Made by a program: the position numbers and the translations under genes. A model generated the notes under the pieces. It was not told the origin of the DNA. It was given only the letters and a program-made list of their open reading frames with translations, and ran no database searches. A stretch of DNA of 64,000 nt from Kineosporia sp. NBRC 101731 (GTDB lineage: Bacteria; Actinomycetota; Actinomycetes; Actinomycetales; Kineosporiaceae), in the NCBI RefSeq assembly GCF_030269305.1, contig NZ_BSTC01000017.1, forward strand, positions 62,001 through 126,000, in the 5' to 3' direction. Shown here one piece after another: positions 6,824-58,648 of this stretch (its first letter is position 1; every line of letters begins with the position of its first letter).

Positions 6824-8086
6824 GTGTCCACCGCTCCGCCGCCCGCCCCCGCACGTCTCGTCGTCGTCGGGATCGGGGCCGACGGGTGGCCCGGTCTTTC
6901 GCCCGCGGCCCAGGAAGTACTGCGACAGGCGGACGTGGTGTTCGGCGGGGATCGTCAGCTCGCGTTGCTGCCGGGTGAGGTCGCCGGGCGGCAGGTCGCG
7001 TGGCCCCCGGGGCTGGTCCGGGCGCTGCCGCTGTTGCTGGTGAAGACTCCCGGTGCACGCAAGGTGGTGCTGGCCAGCGGCGATCCGACGTTCTTCGGCA
7101 TCGCGACGACCATTGCCCGGGTGGTGCCCGGCTTCGAGCTCGACGTACTGCCGCATCCTTCGAGCGTGTCCCTGGCCTGCGCGTGGATGGGCTGGGCACA
7201 GCAGGACACCGAGGTGATCAGCCTGGTCGGCCGGCCTGTCGCGACCCTGCAGCCCGCGGTCTCCCCCGGCCGGCGGCTGCTCGTGCTGGTGCCCGGCGAG
7301 GATTCACCGGCCCAGGTCGCGGCGCTGCTGCGGGAGCGTGGGTTCGGTCCCAGCGAGTTGACGGCGCTGAGCAATCTGGGAGCACAGGACGCGTCTCGGG
7401 TATCGGCTTCCGCCGACGAATGGCCCGCCGCGGGGTATCCGTCGCACGCCCCCGAAGGGTCGAAGGCGCTGACCGTTCTCGCGGTGGTGTGCCGACCCGG
7501 CCCTGCGGCGAAACGACTTTCGCGGGTGCCCGGGTTGCCCGACGATGCGTACGAGAACGACGGACAGCTGACGAAACGCCATGTGCGTGCGGTCACACTG
7601 TCGGCCCTCGCCCCCGAGCCCGGAGAGTTGCTGTGGGACGTCGGTGGTGGCGCGGGGAGCGTCGGTATCGAATGGTTGCGGTCCCATCCGTCGTGCCGGG
7701 CCGTCAGTATCGAGCGCGACGGGGAACGATCGGCCCGGATCGCCCGCAATGCCGAGCTTCTGGGCGTCCCTCATTTAGAGGTGCGCACCGGTGAGGCCCC
7801 CGCCGAGCTGAACGGACTACCCACTCCGGACGCGATTTTCGTGGGCGGCGGGCTGACCGCACCGGGCCTGGTGGACCTCTGCTGGGAGGCGCTGGCGCCG
7901 GGTGGGCGGATGGTGGTGAACGTGACCACGCTGGAGTCTGAAATGGTTCTGGCCCAGGCCCGCTCGAACTACGGCGGAACCCTGACGAAGATCGACATCA
8001 CGAGAGCCACGGCGATCGGGCGGTTCACCGGCTGGCGCCCCGCCATGCCGGTCACCCAGTGGGTCTCCTGGAAGGTTGCGACATGA
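6824..8086 (+). CDS. cobL: Precorrin-6Y C5,15-methyltransferase (decarboxylating), CbiE-CbiT fusion
   Basis: The 420-residue bifunctional enzyme of aerobic cobalamin synthesis methylates precorrin-6Y at C5 and C15 and decarboxylates it to precorrin-8. Residues about 10-210 are the CbiE-type tetrapyrrole methylase (VVVGIGADGWPGLSPAA, then VVLASGDPTFFG). Residues about 230-420 are the CbiT-type Rossmann methyltransferase, with the SAM motif LLWDVGGGAGSVGIEW and IFVGGGL. The length fits the fused CobL family. Start GTG 6824 precedes the first strand closely. It is first of four cob genes and overlaps cobM by ATGA. Confidence 0.9.
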   Translation: MSTAPPPAPARLVVVGIGADGWPGLSPAAQEVLRQADVVFGGDRQLALLPGEVAGRQVAWPPGLVRALPLLLVKTPGARKVVLASGDPTFFGIATTIARVVPGFELDVLPHPSSVSLACAWMGWAQQDTEVISLVGRPVATLQPAVSPGRRLLVLVPGEDSPAQVAALLRERGFGPSELTALSNLGAQDASRVSASADEWPAAGYPSHAPEGSKALTVLAVVCRPGPAAKRLSRVPGLPDDAYENDGQLTKRHVRAVTLSALAPEPGELLWDVGGGAGSVGIEWLRSHPSCRAVSIERDGERSARIARNAELLGVPHLEVRTGEAPAELNGLPTPDAIFVGGGLTAPGLVDLCWEALAPGGRMVVNVTTLESEMVLAQARSNYGGTLTKIDITRATAIGRFTGWRPAMPVTQWVSWKVAT

Positions 8087-8826
8087 CAGTTCATTTCATC
8101 GGAGCCGGGCCGGGAGCCGCCGATCTGCTGACCGTTCGCGGGCTGCGGATCCTGCAGAAGAGCCCGGTCTGCCTCTACGCCGGATCACTGGTACCGGTCG
8201 AGTTGCTGAACGAATGCCCTCCCGGGGCCCGGCTGATCGACACGGCGAACCTCGACCTCGACCAGATCGTCGCCGAACTGCATCAGGCCCACCGGCGGGG
8301 GGACGACGTGGCCCGGCTGCACTCCGGCGACCCGTCGGTGTTCAGTGCGGTGGCCGAGCAGATGCGACGCCTCGACGAGCTGGGAGTTCCGTACGAGATC
8401 GTGCCCGGCGTACCCGCTTTCGCCGCCGCAGCCGCTGCTTTGAAGCGCGAGTTCACGGTGCCCGGGGTGGGACAGTCGGTCATTCTCACCCGGATCTCCC
8501 GCCGCGCCACCGCGATGCCGGCGGGCCAGGACCTGGCGTCGCTGGCGGCCAGCCGATCCACCCTGGTGCTGCACCTGGCCGTCCAGGAGATCGACGACGT
8601 GGTGACCACCCTCGTGCCGTTCTACGGCCCCGAGGGTCCGGTCGCGGTGGTCGCCAAGGCCAGCCGTGACGACGAGGAGATCCTGCGCGGCACCCTGGCC
8701 ACCATCGCCGCCCAGGTGCACGAGGCCGGGATCCGGCGCACGGCGGTCATTGTCGTCGGGCCGGTGCTGACCGCGAGCGAATTTCCCGACAGCCATCTCT
8801 ACTCGACCGAAAGGTGCCGGCACTGA
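8083..8826 (+). CDS. cobM: Precorrin-4 C11-methyltransferase
   Basis: The 247-residue SAM-dependent tetrapyrrole methylase opens with VHFIGAGPGAADLLTVRG and has ARLHSGDPSVFSAVAEQM and YEIVPGVPAFAAAAAAL, all hallmarks of the precorrin-4 C11-methyltransferase branch (CobM/CbiF). It converts precorrin-4 to precorrin-5. ATG 8083 overlaps the cobL stop by four bases. An upstream in-frame start at 8059 would lie inside cobL and adds no homologous sequence. The stop TGA shares its A with the ATG of cobF. Confidence 0.92.
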   Translation: MTVHFIGAGPGAADLLTVRGLRILQKSPVCLYAGSLVPVELLNECPPGARLIDTANLDLDQIVAELHQAHRRGDDVARLHSGDPSVFSAVAEQMRRLDELGVPYEIVPGVPAFAAAAAALKREFTVPGVGQSVILTRISRRATAMPAGQDLASLAASRSTLVLHLAVQEIDDVVTTLVPFYGPEGPVAVVAKASRDDEEILRGTLATIAAQVHEAGIRRTAVIVVGPVLTASEFPDSHLYSTERCRH

Positions 8827-9587
8827 TGCGGAAAGTACTGATCATCGGGGTGGGTGCCGGTGACCCGGACTACGTCACCGTGCAGGCGGTCAAGGCTCTG
8901 AACACCGTGGACGTCTTCTTCCTCATCGACAAGGGCAGCGCCAAGGACGATCTGGTGCAGCTGCGCCGGGACATCTGCGGGCAGCACATCACCGGGCACC
9001 CGTACCGGTTCGTGCAGGCCGCCGACCCGGAGCGGGACCGCGCGGCCGACGCCTACGGTGATGCGGTGAAGGACTGGCACCACCGCCGGGCCGAGATCTT
9101 CGAGCGGATGATCGCGGACGAGCTCACGGACGACGGGGTGGGCGCCATCCTGGTCTGGGGCGACCCCTCGCTGTACGACGGCACGATCCGCATCGTCGAG
9201 GAGCTGCTCGACCGCGGCAACGTGGCCTTCGAGTACGACGTGATCCCGGGGGTGAGCAGCCTGCACTCCCTCACGGCGCGGCACCGGATCCCACTCAACC
9301 GCATCGGTGAGCCCATCCACATCACGCCCGGCCGGCTGCTGGCCGACGGTATGCCCGCCGGCCAGGACAACGTGGTGGTGATGCTCGACGGCGACTGCGC
9401 CTTCCGGCACGTGAACGATCCGGACGTGGATATCTACTGGGGCGCCTACCTCGGGACGAAGGACGAGATCCTCTTCAGCGGGCCGGTGGTGGAGGTCGGG
9501 CCGCAGATCGAGAAGGCCCGGGCGCAGGCCCGTGAACGCAAGGGCTGGGTGATGGACACCTACCTGCTGCGCCGTCGCCGGGCGTGA
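8826..9587 (+). CDS. cobF: Precorrin-6A synthase (deacetylating)
   Basis: This 253-residue tetrapyrrole methylase has the N-terminal loop VLIIGVGAGDPDYVTVQAV and the family-typical segments FFLIDKGSAKDDLVQLRRDIC, ILVWGDPSLYDGTIRIVEEL and YDVIPGVSSLHSLTARH. CobF methylates C1 of precorrin-5 and removes the extruded acetyl unit, a step specific to the oxygen-dependent pathway. Start ATG 8826 overlaps the cobM stop as TGATG; the in-frame GTG at 8814 lies inside cobM. It shows that cobalamin is made by the aerobic route in this organism. Confidence 0.92.
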   Translation: MRKVLIIGVGAGDPDYVTVQAVKALNTVDVFFLIDKGSAKDDLVQLRRDICGQHITGHPYRFVQAADPERDRAADAYGDAVKDWHHRRAEIFERMIADELTDDGVGAILVWGDPSLYDGTIRIVEELLDRGNVAFEYDVIPGVSSLHSLTARHRIPLNRIGEPIHITPGRLLADGMPAGQDNVVVMLDGDCAFRHVNDPDVDIYWGAYLGTKDEILFSGPVVEVGPQIEKARAQARERKGWVMDTYLLRRRRA

Positions 9588-9609: not shown

Positions 9610-9640
9610 GCATTCGTTGCGGGTGGAGCGCAATGAATGC
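9610..9640 (+). promoter_or_regulatory. Inverted repeat over the cobK ribosome site and start (TTGC-N9-GCAA core)
   Basis: GCATTCGTTGC (9610-9620) and GCAATGAATGC (9630-9640) are 11-bp arms with one mismatch and a 9-nt loop that holds the purine-rich GGTGGAG. The right arm contains ATG 9637. As RNA, the hairpin would present or hide the ribosome site. As DNA, its core TTGC-N9-GCAA has the same layout as the site before cbiM and the known Nur box (TTGCAA-N5-TTGCAA type). Which role it has is not known. Confidence 0.4.
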
Positions 9641-10533
9641 ACACGGGTGGAGCGGTCGGCACCATGACGGGGTCGGGTGCAACCCACCGGGTTCTCCTTC
9701 TGGGCGGGACCGGCGAGGCGCGGGAGCTGGCCGCCGTGCTCGTTGCCCGTGGAGTCCCGGTGATCTCGTCCTTGGCGGGCCGGGTCTCCTCACCACGACT
9801 ACCGATGGGGGAGGTGCACGTCGGTGGGTTCGGCGGGGCCGCGGGCCTGGCCGAATACCTCCGGTCCGAAAGCATTTCCGCGGTCGTCGACGCCACTCAT
9901 CCGTTTGCGGCGCGCATCACGGCCCATGCTGTCGTCGCAACCCGAGCGACCAACCCGGCCCCATGCCCCGCCCGACCTTCCCCCGGGGAGGCTTGGCCCG
10001 ATCACAGCGGGGTCGGGGAGAAGGCCCACATCCCGGACGGGGAAGGTTTGCCTGATCACGGCGGGGTTCCGCTTCTCGTGCTGCGGCGGCCCCAATGGCG
10101 GGCCCAGGCCGGTGACCGGTGGGTTCGGGTCGCCGACATCTTCTCTGCTGCAGTACATCTTGCCCGCTACCCGGCCGGCGCCCGGGTGCTCCTGACCACC
10201 GGCCGCCAGGAGACAGCGGCCTTCGCCGAACTCCCCCAGCGGTTCTGGTTGCGGGCTGTCGAAGCGCCCGACGGGCCCCTTCCAGAACACTGCGACATCA
10301 TCCTCGACCGGGGGCCCTTCACCCTCGACGCCGAGCGGGAGCTCATGCGGCACATGGACGTTCTCGTCACCAAGAACAGCGGGGGCCCGATGACGGCGGC
10401 CAAGCTGACCGCGGCGCGCGAGCAGGGCACCGAGGTGATCATGATCGAGCGCCCGCCCCTTCCCGATGGAGTTCCGGTCGTGCAGCAGGTGGCCGAGGCG
10501 GTCGACTGGCTCGAAGAGCGCCTGCGAGCGTAA
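9637..10533 (+). CDS. cobK: Precorrin-6A reductase, with an unusual internal insertion
   Basis: The 298-residue NADPH-dependent reductase converts precorrin-6A to precorrin-6Y. Motifs: VLLLGGTGEARELAAVL near the start, VDATHPFAARITAHAV, GARVLLTTGRQ, and the C-terminal VLVTKNSGGPMTAAKL. Family members run directly from the ATHPFA helix into a strand of the type GVPLLRLERP. Here about 40 residues rich in Pro, Gly, Asp and His (roughly 107-148) intervene, and they are encoded by sequence resembling the hairpin repeat family. The frame is kept and the motifs are intact, so the enzyme may still work. Start ATG 9637 or ATG 9664; both precede the Rossmann strand. It follows cobF by 49 bp. Confidence 0.87.
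   Translation: MHTGGAVGTMTGSGATHRVLLLGGTGEARELAAVLVARGVPVISSLAGRVSSPRLPMGEVHVGGFGGAAGLAEYLRSESISAVVDATHPFAARITAHAVVATRATNPAPCPARPSPGEAWPDHSGVGEKAHIPDGEGLPDHGGVPLLVLRRPQWRAQAGDRWVRVADIFSAAVHLARYPAGARVLLTTGRQETAAFAELPQRFWLRAVEAPDGPLPEHCDIILDRGPFTLDAERELMRHMDVLVTKNSGGPMTAAKLTAAREQGTEVIMIERPPLPDGVPVVQQVAEAVDWLEERLRA
9985..10067 (+). repeat. Two repeat-family arms inside cobK
   Basis: Two 29-base imperfect copies begin at 9985 (GGGGAGGCTTGGCCCGATCA) and 10039 (GGGGAAGGTTTGCCTGATCA), each followed by CAGC or CGGC and GGGGT. They are 54 bases apart, exactly 18 codons. The second copy closely matches the right arms of the intergenic hairpins at 17848 and 35937. They encode the extra Pro-Asp-His-containing residues of CobK. 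Confidence 0.6.
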
Positions 10534-10540
10534 GGACCTC

Positions 10541-10590
10541 CCGGTCAGGACCGGTCAGGACCGGTCAGGACCGGTCAGGACGGGTCAGGA
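10541..10590. repeat. Five tandem copies of a 10-bp unit
   Basis: CCGGTCAGGA is repeated five times without gaps, with one change in the last copy (CGGGTCAGGA), starting 8 bases after the cobK stop codon. Role unknown; length variation between strains would be expected. Confidence 0.85.
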
Positions 10591-10897
10591 CGGACTGATC
10601 ACCCCGGAGGGCCGGTGGCCCTTCATCAACGCAGGCCCGCCCCCGCACTGCATCCCCCGTAGCGCGAAGGGTGGTTGACCTCGAACAACGCCGATCCGTC
10701 CCGGGCCCGGCCGCGGAAAGGCCCCCCGCGCTGCGGAAGAACCCGCAGCCAGTGGATCCACCGGCGCCGACCCCCTCGCCGCTAGCGAAAAGTACTGAGA
10801 CGCAGCACCAATCGGTCATAGCCAACCACCTCGACAACGTGCGACAAGACGCCGGGGACTGACAACGTCCCCCAATTATTACAAGTAAGTAACACCA
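10591..10897. other. Non-coding stretch before the ceb operon
   Basis: No reading frame with native codon use was found. A small hairpin GGGCC-GGT-GGCCC lies at 10609-10621. Just before the operators there is an unusually AT-rich patch (10874-10895), which probably belongs to the cebE promoter, though no clear -35/-10 pair could be fixed. Confidence 0.4.
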
Positions 10898-17627: not shown

Positions 17628-17791
17628 ATGACCGATCTCGACCTGCGCCTCGTGCGGTACTTCGTGGCGCCCTGAGCGACGCCCCGCCCAGCCACGTGGT
17701 CCTCGCCACCCGCGCCGGCGACAACAGCCGTCTGGTGACGGCCTTCCGCAAGCACGCCCAGGCCACCCCGAAACCCCCAAACCTTCCGTGA
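17628..17791 (+). pseudogene. Remnant of a LysR-family regulator (internal deletion)
   Basis: ATG 17628 opens MTDLDLRLVRYFVA, the standard first residues of a LysR helix-turn-helix, but the frame stops after 15 codons (TGA 17673-17675). The following bases in another frame read SHVVLATRAGDNSRLVTAFRKHAQA, the typical C-terminal end of a LysR effector domain. The middle (roughly 250 residues) is missing and the junction is out of frame. It is divergent from the SDR gene, the usual LysR arrangement. The second frame stops at a TGA inside the adjoining hairpin repeat. Confidence 0.75.
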
Positions 17792-17868
17792 TCATGCAAA
17801 ACCTCCCCGGAGTTCTAGAACTGTGCACCCGGGAGTTCTAGAACGCTGGGGAGGTTTTGCATGATCAC
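17788..17868. repeat. Hairpin repeat element, copy A
   Basis: Arms of 21 perfect bases (17788-17808 and 17848-17868) begin GTGATCATGC and end TCCCC/GGGGA. The loop region holds two direct copies of GGAGTTCTAGAAC (17809-17821, 17832-17844), each containing the palindrome GTTCTAGAAC. It lies between the LysR remnant and cbiM. Confidence 0.93.
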
Positions 17869-17894
17869 GAACAGGGGGTTGCGCCCGGCTGTTA

Positions 17895-25138: not shown

Positions 25139-25155
25139 CCCCCGCAAACCTTTCC

Positions 25156-25214
25156 GTGATCATGCGGAGTGTCCCCGGAGTTCTCTCACTCCCGGGGACA
25201 CTCCGCATGATCAC
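25156..25214. repeat. Hairpin repeat element, copy B (perfect 23-bp arms)
   Basis: Bases 25156-25178 and 25192-25214 are perfect reverse complements (GTGATCATGC... and ...GCATGATCAC), with a 13-nt loop. It lies 17 bp after the fcl stop and may also act as its terminator, although no T-run follows. Confidence 0.95.
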
Positions 25215-31262: not shown

Positions 31263-31317
31263 CGAATTTCCTCACGGGTGGGCCGGTAACGGTGCGGCAC
31301 TACCCTTCACCCTGTCC

Positions 31318-31340
31318 GTGATCAGGCCAAGCTTCCCCGG
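31318..31340. repeat. Left arm of the hairpin repeat family (degraded)
   Basis: GTGATCAGGCCAAGCTTCCC and the following CGG match the left arm of the complete copies; no matching right arm follows. It lies upstream of the sulfurtransferase operon. Confidence 0.6.
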
Positions 31341-31398: not shown

Positions 31399-31434
31399 TC
31401 CATAGCTGGTTCGCCGCACCCCGGCCAACCTGCC

Positions 31435-31481
31435 GTGATCATGCAAACCCTCCCCGAGGCGGGGGCACGACCGGACCACGA
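31435..31481. repeat. Degraded hairpin repeat element
   Basis: A good left arm (GTGATCATGCAAACCCTCCC, 31435-31454) is followed by a weak right side (GGGGGC...GGACCACGAA). It is between the sulfurtransferase operon and the 3' end of the GGDEF-EAL gene. Confidence 0.5.
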
Positions 31482-35046: not shown

Positions 35047-35904
35047 ATGAGTCTGGAGCTGCGTCAGCTGCGCTGCCTGGTCGCCGTGGCCGATGGCGGC
35101 ACGTTCACCGACGCCGCGATCGAGCTGGGGGTGTCACAGGCCGCCGTGTCCCGCTCCGTCGCCGCCCTGGAGGCCGAGCTCGGGGTCACGCTGCTGCGGC
35201 GCACCACCCGCCGGGTCGACGTGTCCCCGGCCGGGGCCGCGGTGATCACCCGCGCGCGGCGGATCCTGGCCGAGGTGGCGGAGCTGCGCCGGGCCGTCGA
35301 CGAGACCCGCTCGGAACTGCGCCTGGGCTATGCCTGGTCGGCCCTGGGCCGGCACACCACCGCCCTGCAGCGCACCTGGGCCCGTGACCATCCCACCACC
35401 CGCCTGCTGCTGATCCAGTCCAACACCCCGACGGCCGGGCTCAGCGAGGGCGCCGCCGACCTCGCCGTGGTGCGGCGTCCTCTGCACGACACCCGGTTCG
35501 CCACCGAGCAGATCGCCACCGAGGCCCGCTACGCCGCGGTGCCCGCCGACGACCCCTGGGCCCGCCGCCGTTTCGTGCGCCTGGCGGACTTCGCCGGGCG
35601 CACCGTCTCGATCGATCACCGCACCGGCACCACCACGCCCGGCCTCTGGCCGGCCGGCACCGGGCCGGAGAGGTTCGTCGACTCGAACTCGGTGGACGAC
35701 TGGCTCACGATGATCGCCGCGGGTCAGGCGATCGGCATGACCGCCGAGGCCACGGTCGCCCAGTACCCCCGGCCCGGAGTCGTCTACCGCCCGGTGCGCG
35801 ACGCTCCCCGGCTACCGGTGTGGCTGGCCTGGTGGAAGGACGAGGCTCCCGCACTGACGCGGGCCCTGACCACCCTCGCCAAGGACCTCTACAACCTTCC
35901 GTGA
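35047..35904 (+). CDS. LysR-family transcriptional regulator
   Basis: The 285-residue protein has the LysR helix-turn-helix (LRQLRCLVAVADGGTFTDAA, ELGVSQAAVSRSVAALEAEL) and a substrate-binding effector domain (LRLGYAWSALGRHTTALQR...). Start ATG 35047. The C-terminus ends DLYNLP and its TGA (35902-35904) lies inside the hairpin repeat that follows. It probably controls the divergent EamA transporter. Confidence 0.88.
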   Translation: MSLELRQLRCLVAVADGGTFTDAAIELGVSQAAVSRSVAALEAELGVTLLRRTTRRVDVSPAGAAVITRARRILAEVAELRRAVDETRSELRLGYAWSALGRHTTALQRTWARDHPTTRLLLIQSNTPTAGLSEGAADLAVVRRPLHDTRFATEQIATEARYAAVPADDPWARRRFVRLADFAGRTVSIDHRTGTTTPGLWPAGTGPERFVDSNSVDDWLTMIAAGQAIGMTAEATVAQYPRPGVVYRPVRDAPRLPVWLAWWKDEAPALTRALTTLAKDLYNLP

Positions 35905-35958
35905 TCAGGCGAAGTGTCCCCGTCGTTCTAGAACACCGGGGACATTTTGCCTGATCAT
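35901..35958. repeat. Hairpin repeat element, copy C
   Basis: Arms 35901-35922 (GTGATCAGGCGAAGTGTCCC..) and 35937-35958 (..ACATTTTGCCTGATCAT) pair with a few mismatches. The loop contains GTTCTAGAAC, the same decamer as copy A. It supplies the stop codon of the LysR gene. Confidence 0.9.
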
Positions 35959-42347: not shown

Positions 42348-42385
42348 CCCCGGGTGCGGCGCTCGTCGTCCCCCCTCCTTCGTTC

Positions 42386-42440
42386 GTGATCAGGCAGACC
42401 TTCCCCGGGAAGCGGGGAGGCTGGGGAACTGCATGATCAC
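42386..42440. repeat. Hairpin repeat element, copy D (imperfect)
   Basis: GTGATCAGGCAGACCTTCCC (42386-42405) faces GGGGAACTGCATGATCAC (42423-42440). Arms are imperfect in the middle but the ends match the family. It lies between convergent genes, where it may also stop transcription. Confidence 0.85.
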
Positions 42441-42476
42441 GGACGGACGAGGGGGCCGGCCCGCATGGTCATCGCA

Positions 42477-56068: not shown

Positions 56069-56461
56069 GATGCCCGCAGTCTAGGGCCTGTTGCCTCGGT
56101 TACCGCCGTAGCCAAGAGACACGTCACGGTCGTGCGGGGATCGGCACGGCACCGCCGGGTGACCTCCGGATGCGCCGCCACCAGCAGATACCGGCGAAAC
56201 AGCCAGGTCCTGTGACGACCGCGAAGGCCCGCCCCGTCCTCGTGCGTGATCATGCGAACCCTCCCGGCTCCGGTCTGGCGAACCGCTCGATCACGAACCA
56301 AGCGATCGACCACCTCCGGCCATCACCACCCGATCCGAACGCGTTCGGGCCTCGACGACATCACGAGGAGATGCCGGCCCGTCAGCACGGCCATTCACGG
56401 CGCACCCCGACCCCGCTCAGCCCGACCCCCCTCACCTCAACCCGGCCCACCCCGGGCCCGC
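56069..56461. other. Long intergenic region with a degraded hairpin repeat
   Basis: The 393-bp gap contains a repeat-family copy at 56246-56299. The remaining sequence has no frame with native codon use and no terminator-like hairpin beyond the repeat. Confidence 0.4.
56246..56299. repeat. Degraded hairpin repeat element
   Basis: A good left arm GTGATCATGCGAACCCTCCC (56246-56265) faces a decayed right arm ending CGATCACGAACC (56288-56299). Confidence 0.6.
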
Positions 56462-58648
56462 TCAGAACGGCGCCGCCAGAAGCTCACGCTGATAGGTACC
56501 GGCAGCCAGCCAGGCCCGGGCCAGGTCGCCCCCGGTCTCGGTGGCGAGCCGGCCGAACACGTCCCGCTCCGCGGGCTGTGCGGCATCGAGTAGCCGCTCC
56601 AGCAGGACAGCTGCCGTGGCCAGCTGGTCGCGGCGGAGCATCGCGGCCTCTGAGCGCACCTCGCGGGGAACACCGGGCACGGACAGCGTGCGCCGCCCTC
56701 CGGACACCACCCGTTCCAGACGCCTCCGGTAGGCCAGGAGCGGATCGGCCACCTCACCGGTCGCCGGGAACGGTGGTGGTGGGCCCGACGGACGCAGGAA
56801 ACGCGACGACAGACGGTCGAAGCCGAGATCGGCATGTCCGCCCAGACCGGCCGGCAGCCGCAGGTCACCGCCTCCGACCGCGATCAGTTCCAGGGTGCCC
56901 GGCAGCCCGAGAAAGCTCGCCGGAGCGGCGAAACCGTTGACGTCACCGGTCGGGGGCCGTGCGACCGCCAGCATCCGCAGGCCCGGTTTGCCGGCGAGCA
57001 GCCGCAGGTTGTCGCGGTGGATCCGGTGCCGGTCGCCCACCGGCCCGACGAGCCGCACCCCCTGACCCTCGTCGTCCACGGCCAGCAAGGCGTCTCGGTC
57101 GTCGCCGCACACCGTGAGCGCGAGCAGCCGCGGCCTGCGATCACCCGCGTTCGCCGGACCGGTACCCGTGTTCAGCGCACCGAACCGGCTCAGGAGCTGT
57201 GGTTCGGTCCATCCCACCCCGGCCGCACGCACGGCCCGCACCCCACTGCCACTGCCCAGGCGACCCTCCGGGTTCGCAGTGGCGGACGACATGATCATTC
57301 CCGCCCGCGACAGGTCCCGGTGCGACAACCCGGTCTCCCCGACTGCCACCGGCCCCGCGGCCGAGGACATGACACGTTCCGCGTCACCGGGTTTGACGTC
57401 GGAGACCGACCACATCCGGCCCTCGGCATCGGTCAGCCAGACGACCACCCCGGCATACCCGGCGGAGCTGATCACGGGTTCCAGGCACAACCCGGCCAGT
57501 CTCAGCCCACCCACCCCGCTGTAGACTGTGCGGGCCGTTCCCCGCCAGTCCGCTGGATCACCCGTACCGGTGGACACCGCGTACGCCACGGACAGCACCT
57601 CGAGCAGATCGGCTGTCAGCCCTGGCAAGGAGAACGAGGCGTCGTCCGCCCGGGCCGCCCGCACCGCGCTCACCACCCGGGTCGCCGACGAGGCCAGACG
57701 ATGCAGTGCCCGCAGTCGCGCCTGATGCACCCCGGCCAGCAACTGCCCCTGCAAAGCCGCACCGGCACCTGCGGTCCCGGCCTCGAGAAGGCGACCAGCA
57801 GCGTCCCAGATCATCTGGGCGGCAGCACGTTCCGATGGTTTCCAAGCAACGGACGCTGTGGTCACCGCGGTCTCGGCCGTGGATTTCGTGGGAGCAGAGG
57901 CCGCCGAGACGGCCCCTACAGGGGTGGAGACCGCGGGAGCGGACGCCATGAGGGACGGCGCAGTGGGGATCGAGGTGGACGCCGGCGTGAGCTGCCCGGC
58001 CGCGGTGACTCCGGTTCCGGCGGTGACTCCGGTTCCGGCCGTGACTCCAGTTCCGACCGTGACTCCAGTTCCGGCCGTGACCGAATCCGGTGCAACGGAT
58101 CCCGATCCGACGGGATCCGGCGCTGCGACTTTCGAGGACTTCGGCGGTTTCGAGGGAACCGGCTCCGTCGCCGCCGGACCAGACTCCCCCGTAGCACCGG
58201 CCGGTCTTGCTGCCACCGGCGCGGTCGCCGCAGATCCCGGTGCCGTGGTATCAACGGCTGCAGGACCGGAAGTTTCAGGAAGCGGTACGGCGGCGACCCC
58301 AGGAACTTCCGGATCGCCGGAGGCGGCCGACGACTCCCCTTCCACCAGATCCCTTTCCCCGAACGGCCCCTCCTGCGCCGGATCGGCCACGGGGGCAACG
58401 CTCAGAACCGCGGCGCGGTGGAGGCATACCGGCGCGAGAAGGCAATCACAGAAGACGTTCTCGGGCCTACGAAGCGCCCCGCCCTCGGGCTCCAGCGTGA
58501 CCCGGGCGCCACCGAGGTCGACGGCCCCGTCCGCGTATGTCCATTGAGAAGATCCTGAAACCGTTGCGTCGAGACGTTTCTGCAACCGTGCGGGCAGACC
58601 GGCGACGGTTGCCGCCACCAGTTCCGGATCGGCCGGGGGAAGGTTCAT
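56462..58648 (-). CDS. SWIM zinc-finger protein of the MoxR/vWA cluster (YehQ-like)
   Basis: The 728-residue protein has a SWIM-type finger at residues 67-77 (CDCLLAPVCLH, a CxCx5CxH set). A long low-complexity linker (about 90-290) follows, with six-residue GTGVTA repeats, and then a large C-terminal domain with no named motif. E. coli yehQ in the yehI-K-L-M-P-Q-R region also has a SWIM finger beside a MoxR ATPase and a vWA protein, which supports the assignment. SWIM fingers bind DNA or protein. ATG 58648 overlaps the stop of the upstream gene (ATGA). It is the last gene of the unit. Confidence 0.75.
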   Translation of the reverse strand: MNLPPADPELVAATVAGLPARLQKRLDATVSGSSQWTYADGAVDLGGARVTLEPEGGALRRPENVFCDCLLAPVCLHRAAVLSVAPVADPAQEGPFGERDLVEGESSAASGDPEVPGVAAVPLPETSGPAAVDTTAPGSAATAPVAARPAGATGESGPAATEPVPSKPPKSSKVAAPDPVGSGSVAPDSVTAGTGVTVGTGVTAGTGVTAGTGVTAAGQLTPASTSIPTAPSLMASAPAVSTPVGAVSAASAPTKSTAETAVTTASVAWKPSERAAAQMIWDAAGRLLEAGTAGAGAALQGQLLAGVHQARLRALHRLASSATRVVSAVRAARADDASFSLPGLTADLLEVLSVAYAVSTGTGDPADWRGTARTVYSGVGGLRLAGLCLEPVISSAGYAGVVVWLTDAEGRMWSVSDVKPGDAERVMSSAAGPVAVGETGLSHRDLSRAGMIMSSATANPEGRLGSGSGVRAVRAAGVGWTEPQLLSRFGALNTGTGPANAGDRRPRLLALTVCGDDRDALLAVDDEGQGVRLVGPVGDRHRIHRDNLRLLAGKPGLRMLAVARPPTGDVNGFAAPASFLGLPGTLELIAVGGGDLRLPAGLGGHADLGFDRLSSRFLRPSGPPPPFPATGEVADPLLAYRRRLERVVSGGRRTLSVPGVPREVRSEAAMLRRDQLATAAVLLERLLDAAQPAERDVFGRLATETGGDLARAWLAAGTYQRELLAAPF
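58005..58076. repeat. Four 18-bp tandem copies inside the SWIM gene
   Basis: GTGACTCCGGTTCCGGCC-type units start at 58005, 58023, 58041 and 58059, with a partial fifth at 58077. On the minus strand they encode GTGVTA repeats in the linker. Confidence 0.9.

Follow-up and report, generated by a model that had tools for sequence, protein, structure and literature searches.

An in-frame segment of CobK in Kineosporia that is translated from a dispersed palindromic repeat, and a nuclease gene associated with the repeat

The stretch of DNA analyzed here (the window, 64,000 nucleotides, C17:62001-126000) belongs to the 8.26 Mb genome of a member of the genus Kineosporia, referred to as G000. Within it, cobK lies in a run of cobalamin genes, after cobL-like, cobM-like and cobF-like genes that were named by reading their translations (Table 1). 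Pfam family PF02571 matches the CobK open reading frame in two stretches (1.6e-66), and homology to solved CobK and to Pfam CbiJ spans both domains of the protein. Directly after cobK, ten-base CAGGACCGGT-like units form a short tandem repeat (window 10543-10592).

Table 1. Positions of the cobalamin genes, the inserted segment, the repeat copies and the nuclease genes (window coordinates unless a genome and contig are given).
Feature	Position	Strand	Basis or remark
cobL-like gene, upstream of cobK	6824-8086		name from reading translation
cobM-like gene, upstream of cobK	8059-8826		name from reading translation
cobF-like gene, upstream of cobK	8814-9587		name from reading translation
cobK (precorrin-6A reductase, CbiJ/CobK family)	9637..10533	+	ORF; Pfam PF02571; PDB 4x7g/5c4r homologues
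Inserted segment, 37 codons, NPAPCPARPSPGEAWPDHSGVGEKAHIPDGEGLPDHG	9952..10062	+	missing from 4 congeners and 6 outgroups
Possible left-arm remnant, CCTTCCCC, facing first right arm	9976..9983	+	tentative; reading of the sequence
First repeat arm, right-arm sense, CGGGGAGGCTTGGCCCGATCACAGCGGGG	9984..10012	+	19.1 bits on family matrix
Second repeat arm, CGGGGAAGGTTTGCCTGATCACGGCGGGG	10038..10066	+	32.0 bits; exact family pattern
Intergenic full hairpin, 36-nt arms	17787..17869	.	arms 94% complementary
Intergenic hairpin, arm variant GCGGAGTGTCCCC / GGGGACACTCCGC	25153..25214	.	
Single left-sense arm	31315..31339	+	
Single left-sense arm	31432..31456	+	
Intergenic hairpin, variant arms	35898..35958	.	
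Degenerate hairpin of the family	42383..42443	.	
Single arm, degenerate	56243..56267	+	
AbiEi_4 + Vsr-like REase gene inside repeat hairpin	G000:C1:1543642-1544830		L268
AbiEi_4 + Vsr-like REase gene inside repeat hairpin, K. mesophila	G002:C1:144962-146085		L269, L080

A preliminary description of this DNA had proposed that CobK carries an insert of about 40 residues containing two 29-base copies, 54 bases apart, that match the right arm of hairpins found between genes. Codon-level comparison of cobK with congeners, by which the ends of the segment were set, upheld the insert and put its size at 37 codons, and the two copies were found as described, identical at 24 of 29 positions with a start-to-start distance of 54 nt and both scoring on the position matrix of the repeat family. 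The last four bases of the second arm overlap native codons, and the likeness between the two copies is limited to the arm of approximately 28 nt; no similarity was detected between the left half of one 54-nt unit and that of the other. The insert consists of one right arm or two, plus at most a left-arm remnant, and is not a complete hairpin; its left 27 nt or so gave no clear match to the repeat family.

In the alignment, the insert site is empty in CobK from four further congeners, from two more genera of the same family and from four outgroups, and the solved CobK of R. capsulatus has a clean gap there, between its residues 90 and 91. The sister species K. mesophila JCM 16902 (G002, NZ_JAJOMA010000001), the closest relative of G000 in the collection, has a CobK of 84% identity in which 17 additional codons occupy this site, with one arm (CGGGGAGATTCTGCATGATCACGGCGGGG) that also matches the repeat family (G002:C1:297937). 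The left parts of this shorter insert and of the G000 insert align with each other (shuffling, p 0.005), and the presence of an insert at the same site in both indicates that it predates the split of the two species. Carriers are these two genomes only, such that the event itself is observed once. The preliminary description had also named an ancestral loop, conserved across distant CobK proteins, as the alternative to an insertion. Such a loop, lost in the other lineages and resembling the repeat by chance, would suit the fact that CobK loop lengths do differ between lineages in the alignment, but the residues are not conserved in any congener other than the sister, in any of the six distant CobKs aligned or in the solved structure, the arms score 19 and 32 bits, against no match at 14 bits or above on reversed sequence, and the one-arm version at the same site in the sister points to an inherited insert instead. 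We give the ancestral loop virtually no credence.

A second alternative is that a tandem duplication within cobK generated repeat-like sequence without any tie to a dispersed family. The occurrence of two copies exactly 18 codons apart in G000, and of one in K. mesophila, is what such a duplication might leave behind; both arms, however, match the genome-wide family, as does the single arm of K. mesophila, chance matches to the family are excluded by window shuffles and by the reversed-sequence control, and the left half of the second 54-nt unit is unrelated to that of the first (shuffle p 0.4), which together make this account highly improbable. The extra residues of CobK, approximately 37 in number, are encoded by DNA of a dispersed palindromic repeat that entered cobK in frame. 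The difference of one 54-nt unit between the species reflects either a gain in G000 or a deletion in K. mesophila through exchange between the direct arms.

In order to place the segment in the fold, the insert site was located by sequence on the solved CobK, an AlphaFold2 model of the single CobK sequence (mean pLDDT 35) being too poor for use. The site falls at the end of helix alpha3, before the next strand at the other edge of the sheet, and would correspond to the alpha3/beta5 loop, on the sheet edge that faces away from the pocket for coenzyme and substrate. The insert would thus be at the surface and disturb catalysis little, and CobK should still work. Outside the insert, comparison of cobK with K. 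mesophila gave a dN/dS of 0.22, pointing to purifying selection on the core of the enzyme, while the insert itself gave 0.62 from few sites and only 11 changes, on which it looks less constrained than the remainder of the gene.

The repeat to which these arms belong has the arm consensus YYCGTGATCAKGCAAAACCTCCCCGG and forms elements mostly of 44-116 nt. G000 contains 360 exact arms of pattern CGTGATCAKGCNNRNNNTCCCC and K. mesophila 372; the 11 further genomes of the family, the four congeners among them, contain none, and a reversed control was also zero. When exact 22-mers were matched against approximately 85,000 species genomes in a count that leaves out G000 itself, every match among those listed (80 of the 93 stretches) was to K. 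mesophila. Among the relatives searched, the repeat family is confined to these two genomes. The family position matrix yielded 193 matches at or above 14 bits in 2.4 Mb and none on reversed sequence, and the window alone contains 19 pattern sites, compared with 1.6 +/- 1.2 in shuffles. An 18-nt tandem repeat of another sequence (GCGGTGACTCCGGTTCCG), perhaps coding, is also seen in the window (58002-58073).

A survey of 2.14 Mb of G000 identified 118 elements, including 62 facing-arm hairpins, 48 single arms and a mixed remainder, with terminal inverted repeats present and hairpin lengths clustering at 87, 48 and 116 nt. The variable 7-mer of an arm matches that of its own partner at 5.8 of 7 positions, compared with 3.5 +/- 0.18 for shuffled partners, and variants such as AAAACC, AAGTGT and GAACCT, among others, recur as matching arms within one hairpin, so the arms of a hairpin covary. 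At orthologous sites, elements are mostly present in both G000 and K. mesophila, sometimes with a different arm type. Structure is thus retained as the sequence changes, whether by selection or by conversion. One clean presence/absence site was found between the two species, and no clear target duplication was seen at its empty side, with at most an ambiguous CG.

Elements are rare inside genes although approximately 82% of the sequence is coding. Among intergenic elements, 44/117 lie in convergent gaps, compared with 206/1345 gaps overall, and fewer than expected from that background lie in divergent gaps (17/117 vs 342/1345). Coding frames that end near an element stop no more than 40 nt before it in 73/102 cases, and five genes in the 2.14 Mb stop on the TGA of the element's own TGATCA, such that the repeat supplies the stop codon. 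This placement, along with the covariation of the arms, is what one would anticipate if the repeats were transcription terminators or 3'-end hairpins that do not move, the CobK copy being a chance capture. That reading fits less well with the flank consensus, which lacks a U-tract or T run (some single copies have one), with an expansion in this lineage alone to similar copies numbering in the hundreds, with the elements found within cobK, icmF and the OafA-like gene, and with the clean presence/absence site, and we consider it unlikely. A position at the ends of genes and mobility of the repeat are in any case compatible with each other.

Only about 3-4 of the 118 elements lie in well-supported genes. 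In icmF, encoding the fused isobutyryl-CoA mutase, a 48-nt hairpin is read in frame as SVIMQNLPGEVLHDHEH (G000:C1:825812-825860); it sits in a poorly conserved linker, is common to both species and is absent in seven relatives. An OafA-like acyltransferase carries the in-frame insert RDQAKTPPSSGTVGGEGLPDHE (G000 C1:758008-758076), which is likewise common to both species and missing in the two congeners aligned. A third case, one degenerate arm in the linker of an ABC ATPase, is seen in G000 only at a site of variable length anyway, and is no more than a probable in-frame repeat arm. Reading the arm in all frames, two of three are open on each strand and the third meets the TGA of TGATCA, and each of these three inserts occupies a loop or linker, which would fit a selection of surviving insertions by frame and fold. 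Weak single-arm matches inside genes, such as those at C17:80083 and C1:593524 (the latter in an ABC Walker motif), were taken as chance, and two others (C2:80108 and C1:540023-540202) that resemble degenerate arms in linkers were left out of the count.

Searches of G000 and K. mesophila for repeat arms facing each other at a distance of 0.3-4 kb yielded one clear case per species, in both instances around a single-copy gene for a 319-residue protein. This protein combines an AbiEi_4 winged helix (PF13338, above cut-off) with a Vsr-like restriction endonuclease (REase) domain whose match to REase_MTES_1575 (PF18741, E 7.5e-7) is below the cut-off of that family. The arms around the gene are perfect inverted repeats of 70 nt in G000 and 40 nt in K. 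mesophila, and the inner 1.1-kb segment with the gene has opposite orientations in the two species, whereas its flanks keep the same one. This gene is the only one between long matching arms across the 2.14 Mb of G000 searched, two other facing-arm stretches containing ordinary genes.

No close homologue of this gene was found in the other congeners; homologues in other families are 37-52% identical. Most of these (L322-L338) are also situated between inverted repeats, commonly arrays of two to four iterons with the same core, the motif GTGATCWTGC, spaced 16-42 nt apart; G016, for instance, has CCGTGATCATGCACGTTCGCCC and G027 has CCGTGATCTTGCACTTCTGCAG. An inverted repeat of at least 15 nt was found for 0/50 control genes and for 29/756 mismatched flanks of the same homologue loci. 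In genera related to Kineosporia, a similar arrangement involves quite different repeats: GTCACAAGAGCGCTCCA, with 9-14 copies per genome (L270/L290), and full hairpins on either side of the gene (L271). A second dispersed repeat (CCGTACC..CGTCACAAGAGCGCTCCAACGC..) was observed at L304-L321 in G009, G011 and G012, where copies flank AbiEi-REase genes; one G009 pair (L304) brackets other reading frames and no nuclease.

Across 198 genomes of the order, at least 20 copies of CGTGATCWTGCA were present in 8/13 genomes with a homologue at E <= 1e-50, compared with 2/185 others (Fisher p 1.1e-9; a rough table with one entry per genus gave about 5e-6). The homologue-bearing genomes concerned are G000 (372 copies), G002 (342), G013 (289), G027 (114), G034 (101), G151 (67), G081 (39) and G016 (29), and the two without a close nuclease homologue are G007 (139) and G075 (39). 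Several homologue genomes have few copies of the exact motif and often carry a variant around the gene, such as GTGATCATGG in G159. These genomes, together with G007 and G075, weigh against the link between nuclease and repeat. Co-occurrence and arrays of this kind are what a cognate pair of gene and repeat would look like, and suggest that the nuclease may mobilize the repeat.

In type IV toxin-antitoxin systems, the AbiEi protein binds repeats located within its own promoter, and the AbiEi-like protein considered here might therefore only bind the repeat as its own operator in autoregulation, with the dispersed copies arising from another source. The arrays of two to four iterons flanking the genes would be in keeping with an operator, but they are inverted and stand at both ends of the gene and not at the promoter alone, and genomes with close homologues hold tens to hundreds of dispersed copies; we regard autoregulation alone as possible but rather doubtful. 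The wider proposal that AbiEi-like proteins with a Vsr-like PD-(D/E)XK nuclease recognize and spread their own GTGATCWTGC palindromes in actinobacteria, as a REP-like system in which a restriction-type nuclease takes the role of the Y1 transposase and with inserts of the CobK type as by-products, is put forward tentatively, at somewhat less than an even chance.

Bringing these observations together, an arm entered cobK just after helix alpha3, before the two species split. Inserts in genes would survive only if they keep an open frame, add a multiple of three nucleotides and fall in a tolerant surface loop or linker, and the repeat may, with less certainty, be spread or maintained by the single-copy gene for the AbiEi-like and Vsr-like PD-(D/E)XK nuclease, much as REP elements are by RAYT transposases. 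Taken as a whole, this explanation of the CobK insert as translated repeat DNA, with survival probably governed by frame, length and loop and with a nuclease as the less certain agent of spread, appears to us very likely to be correct.

Discussion of in-frame palindromic inserts has centered on Rickettsia and Wolbachia, whose genomes are small, AT-rich and under weak selection. The Rickettsia palindromic elements (RPEs) are dispersed palindromes translated in frame in unrelated metabolic genes (Ogata et al. 2000, 2002, per PMC10969869), sometimes common to related species at the same site, and nearly half of those first reported lie in genes; the same review considers a similar mechanism conceivable in other prokaryotes (PMC10969869). 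The resemblance to Rickettsia suggested in the preliminary description is supported insofar as the Kineosporia repeat is palindromic, dispersed and in frame in cobK, icmF and the OafA-like gene while absent from orthologues. It does not extend to a large genic share, given the small number of elements in well-supported genes noted above, or to a complete hairpin in CobK, and the Kineosporia repeat further differs in its phylum, GC-rich genome, shorter elements, linked nuclease gene and, presumably, its sequence. In-frame palindromes are already known as a kind, to which the actinobacterial CobK insert adds a variant. As it occurs in a GC-rich, 8-Mb, free-living actinobacterium and in enzymes under purifying selection, the route from repeat to protein is more general.

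Like miniature inverted-repeat elements (MITEs), the Kineosporia elements are short, non-coding, bounded by inverted repeats and present in many copies, some of them in genes; unlike in MITEs, their long form carries a nuclease gene and not a transposase. The one clean empty site showed at most an ambiguous CG as target duplication, and a partner insertion sequence with the same ends did not emerge from the 2.14 Mb of G000 searched, where long matching arms enclosed only the AbiEi-REase gene. Like intrinsic terminators, the hairpins adjoin stop codons, yet the U-tract is lacking in the flank consensus. The linked nuclease domain is near the MTES_1575-type Vsr-like REases of PF18741, whose prototype belongs to a large HEPN conflict protein, and the source passages on MTES_1575 mention no dispersed palindrome, in contrast to the Kineosporia gene (PMC3710099). 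A literature search, with most subscription journals outside its range, found no report that connects either Kineosporia or AbiEi/MTES_1575 proteins with dispersed palindromes.

Finally, the arrangement resembles that of REP sequences and their RAYT (TnpA-REP) genes, together termed REPtrons (PMC3733652, PMC8266576). As in those systems, the Kineosporia repeat is high-copy, extragenic and mostly located just past stop codons, a single-copy gene is bordered by inverted copies or arrays, and gene and repeat co-occur across genomes. Unlike in those systems, the linked gene encodes AbiEi_4 and REase_MTES_1575-like domains and is not a RAYT gene, the repeat consensus YYCGTGATCAKGC lacks a GTAG or CGTC end tag, and no Y1 HuH transposase (PF01797) was detected in G000, G002 or G004 although control genomes were positive, which ruled out a Y1 transposase as the mobilizer in these genomes. 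The co-occurrence of repeat and nuclease across several families, along with the arrays, provides a concrete and testable candidate for the spreader, and the association of the two could represent a new kind of REP-like system.
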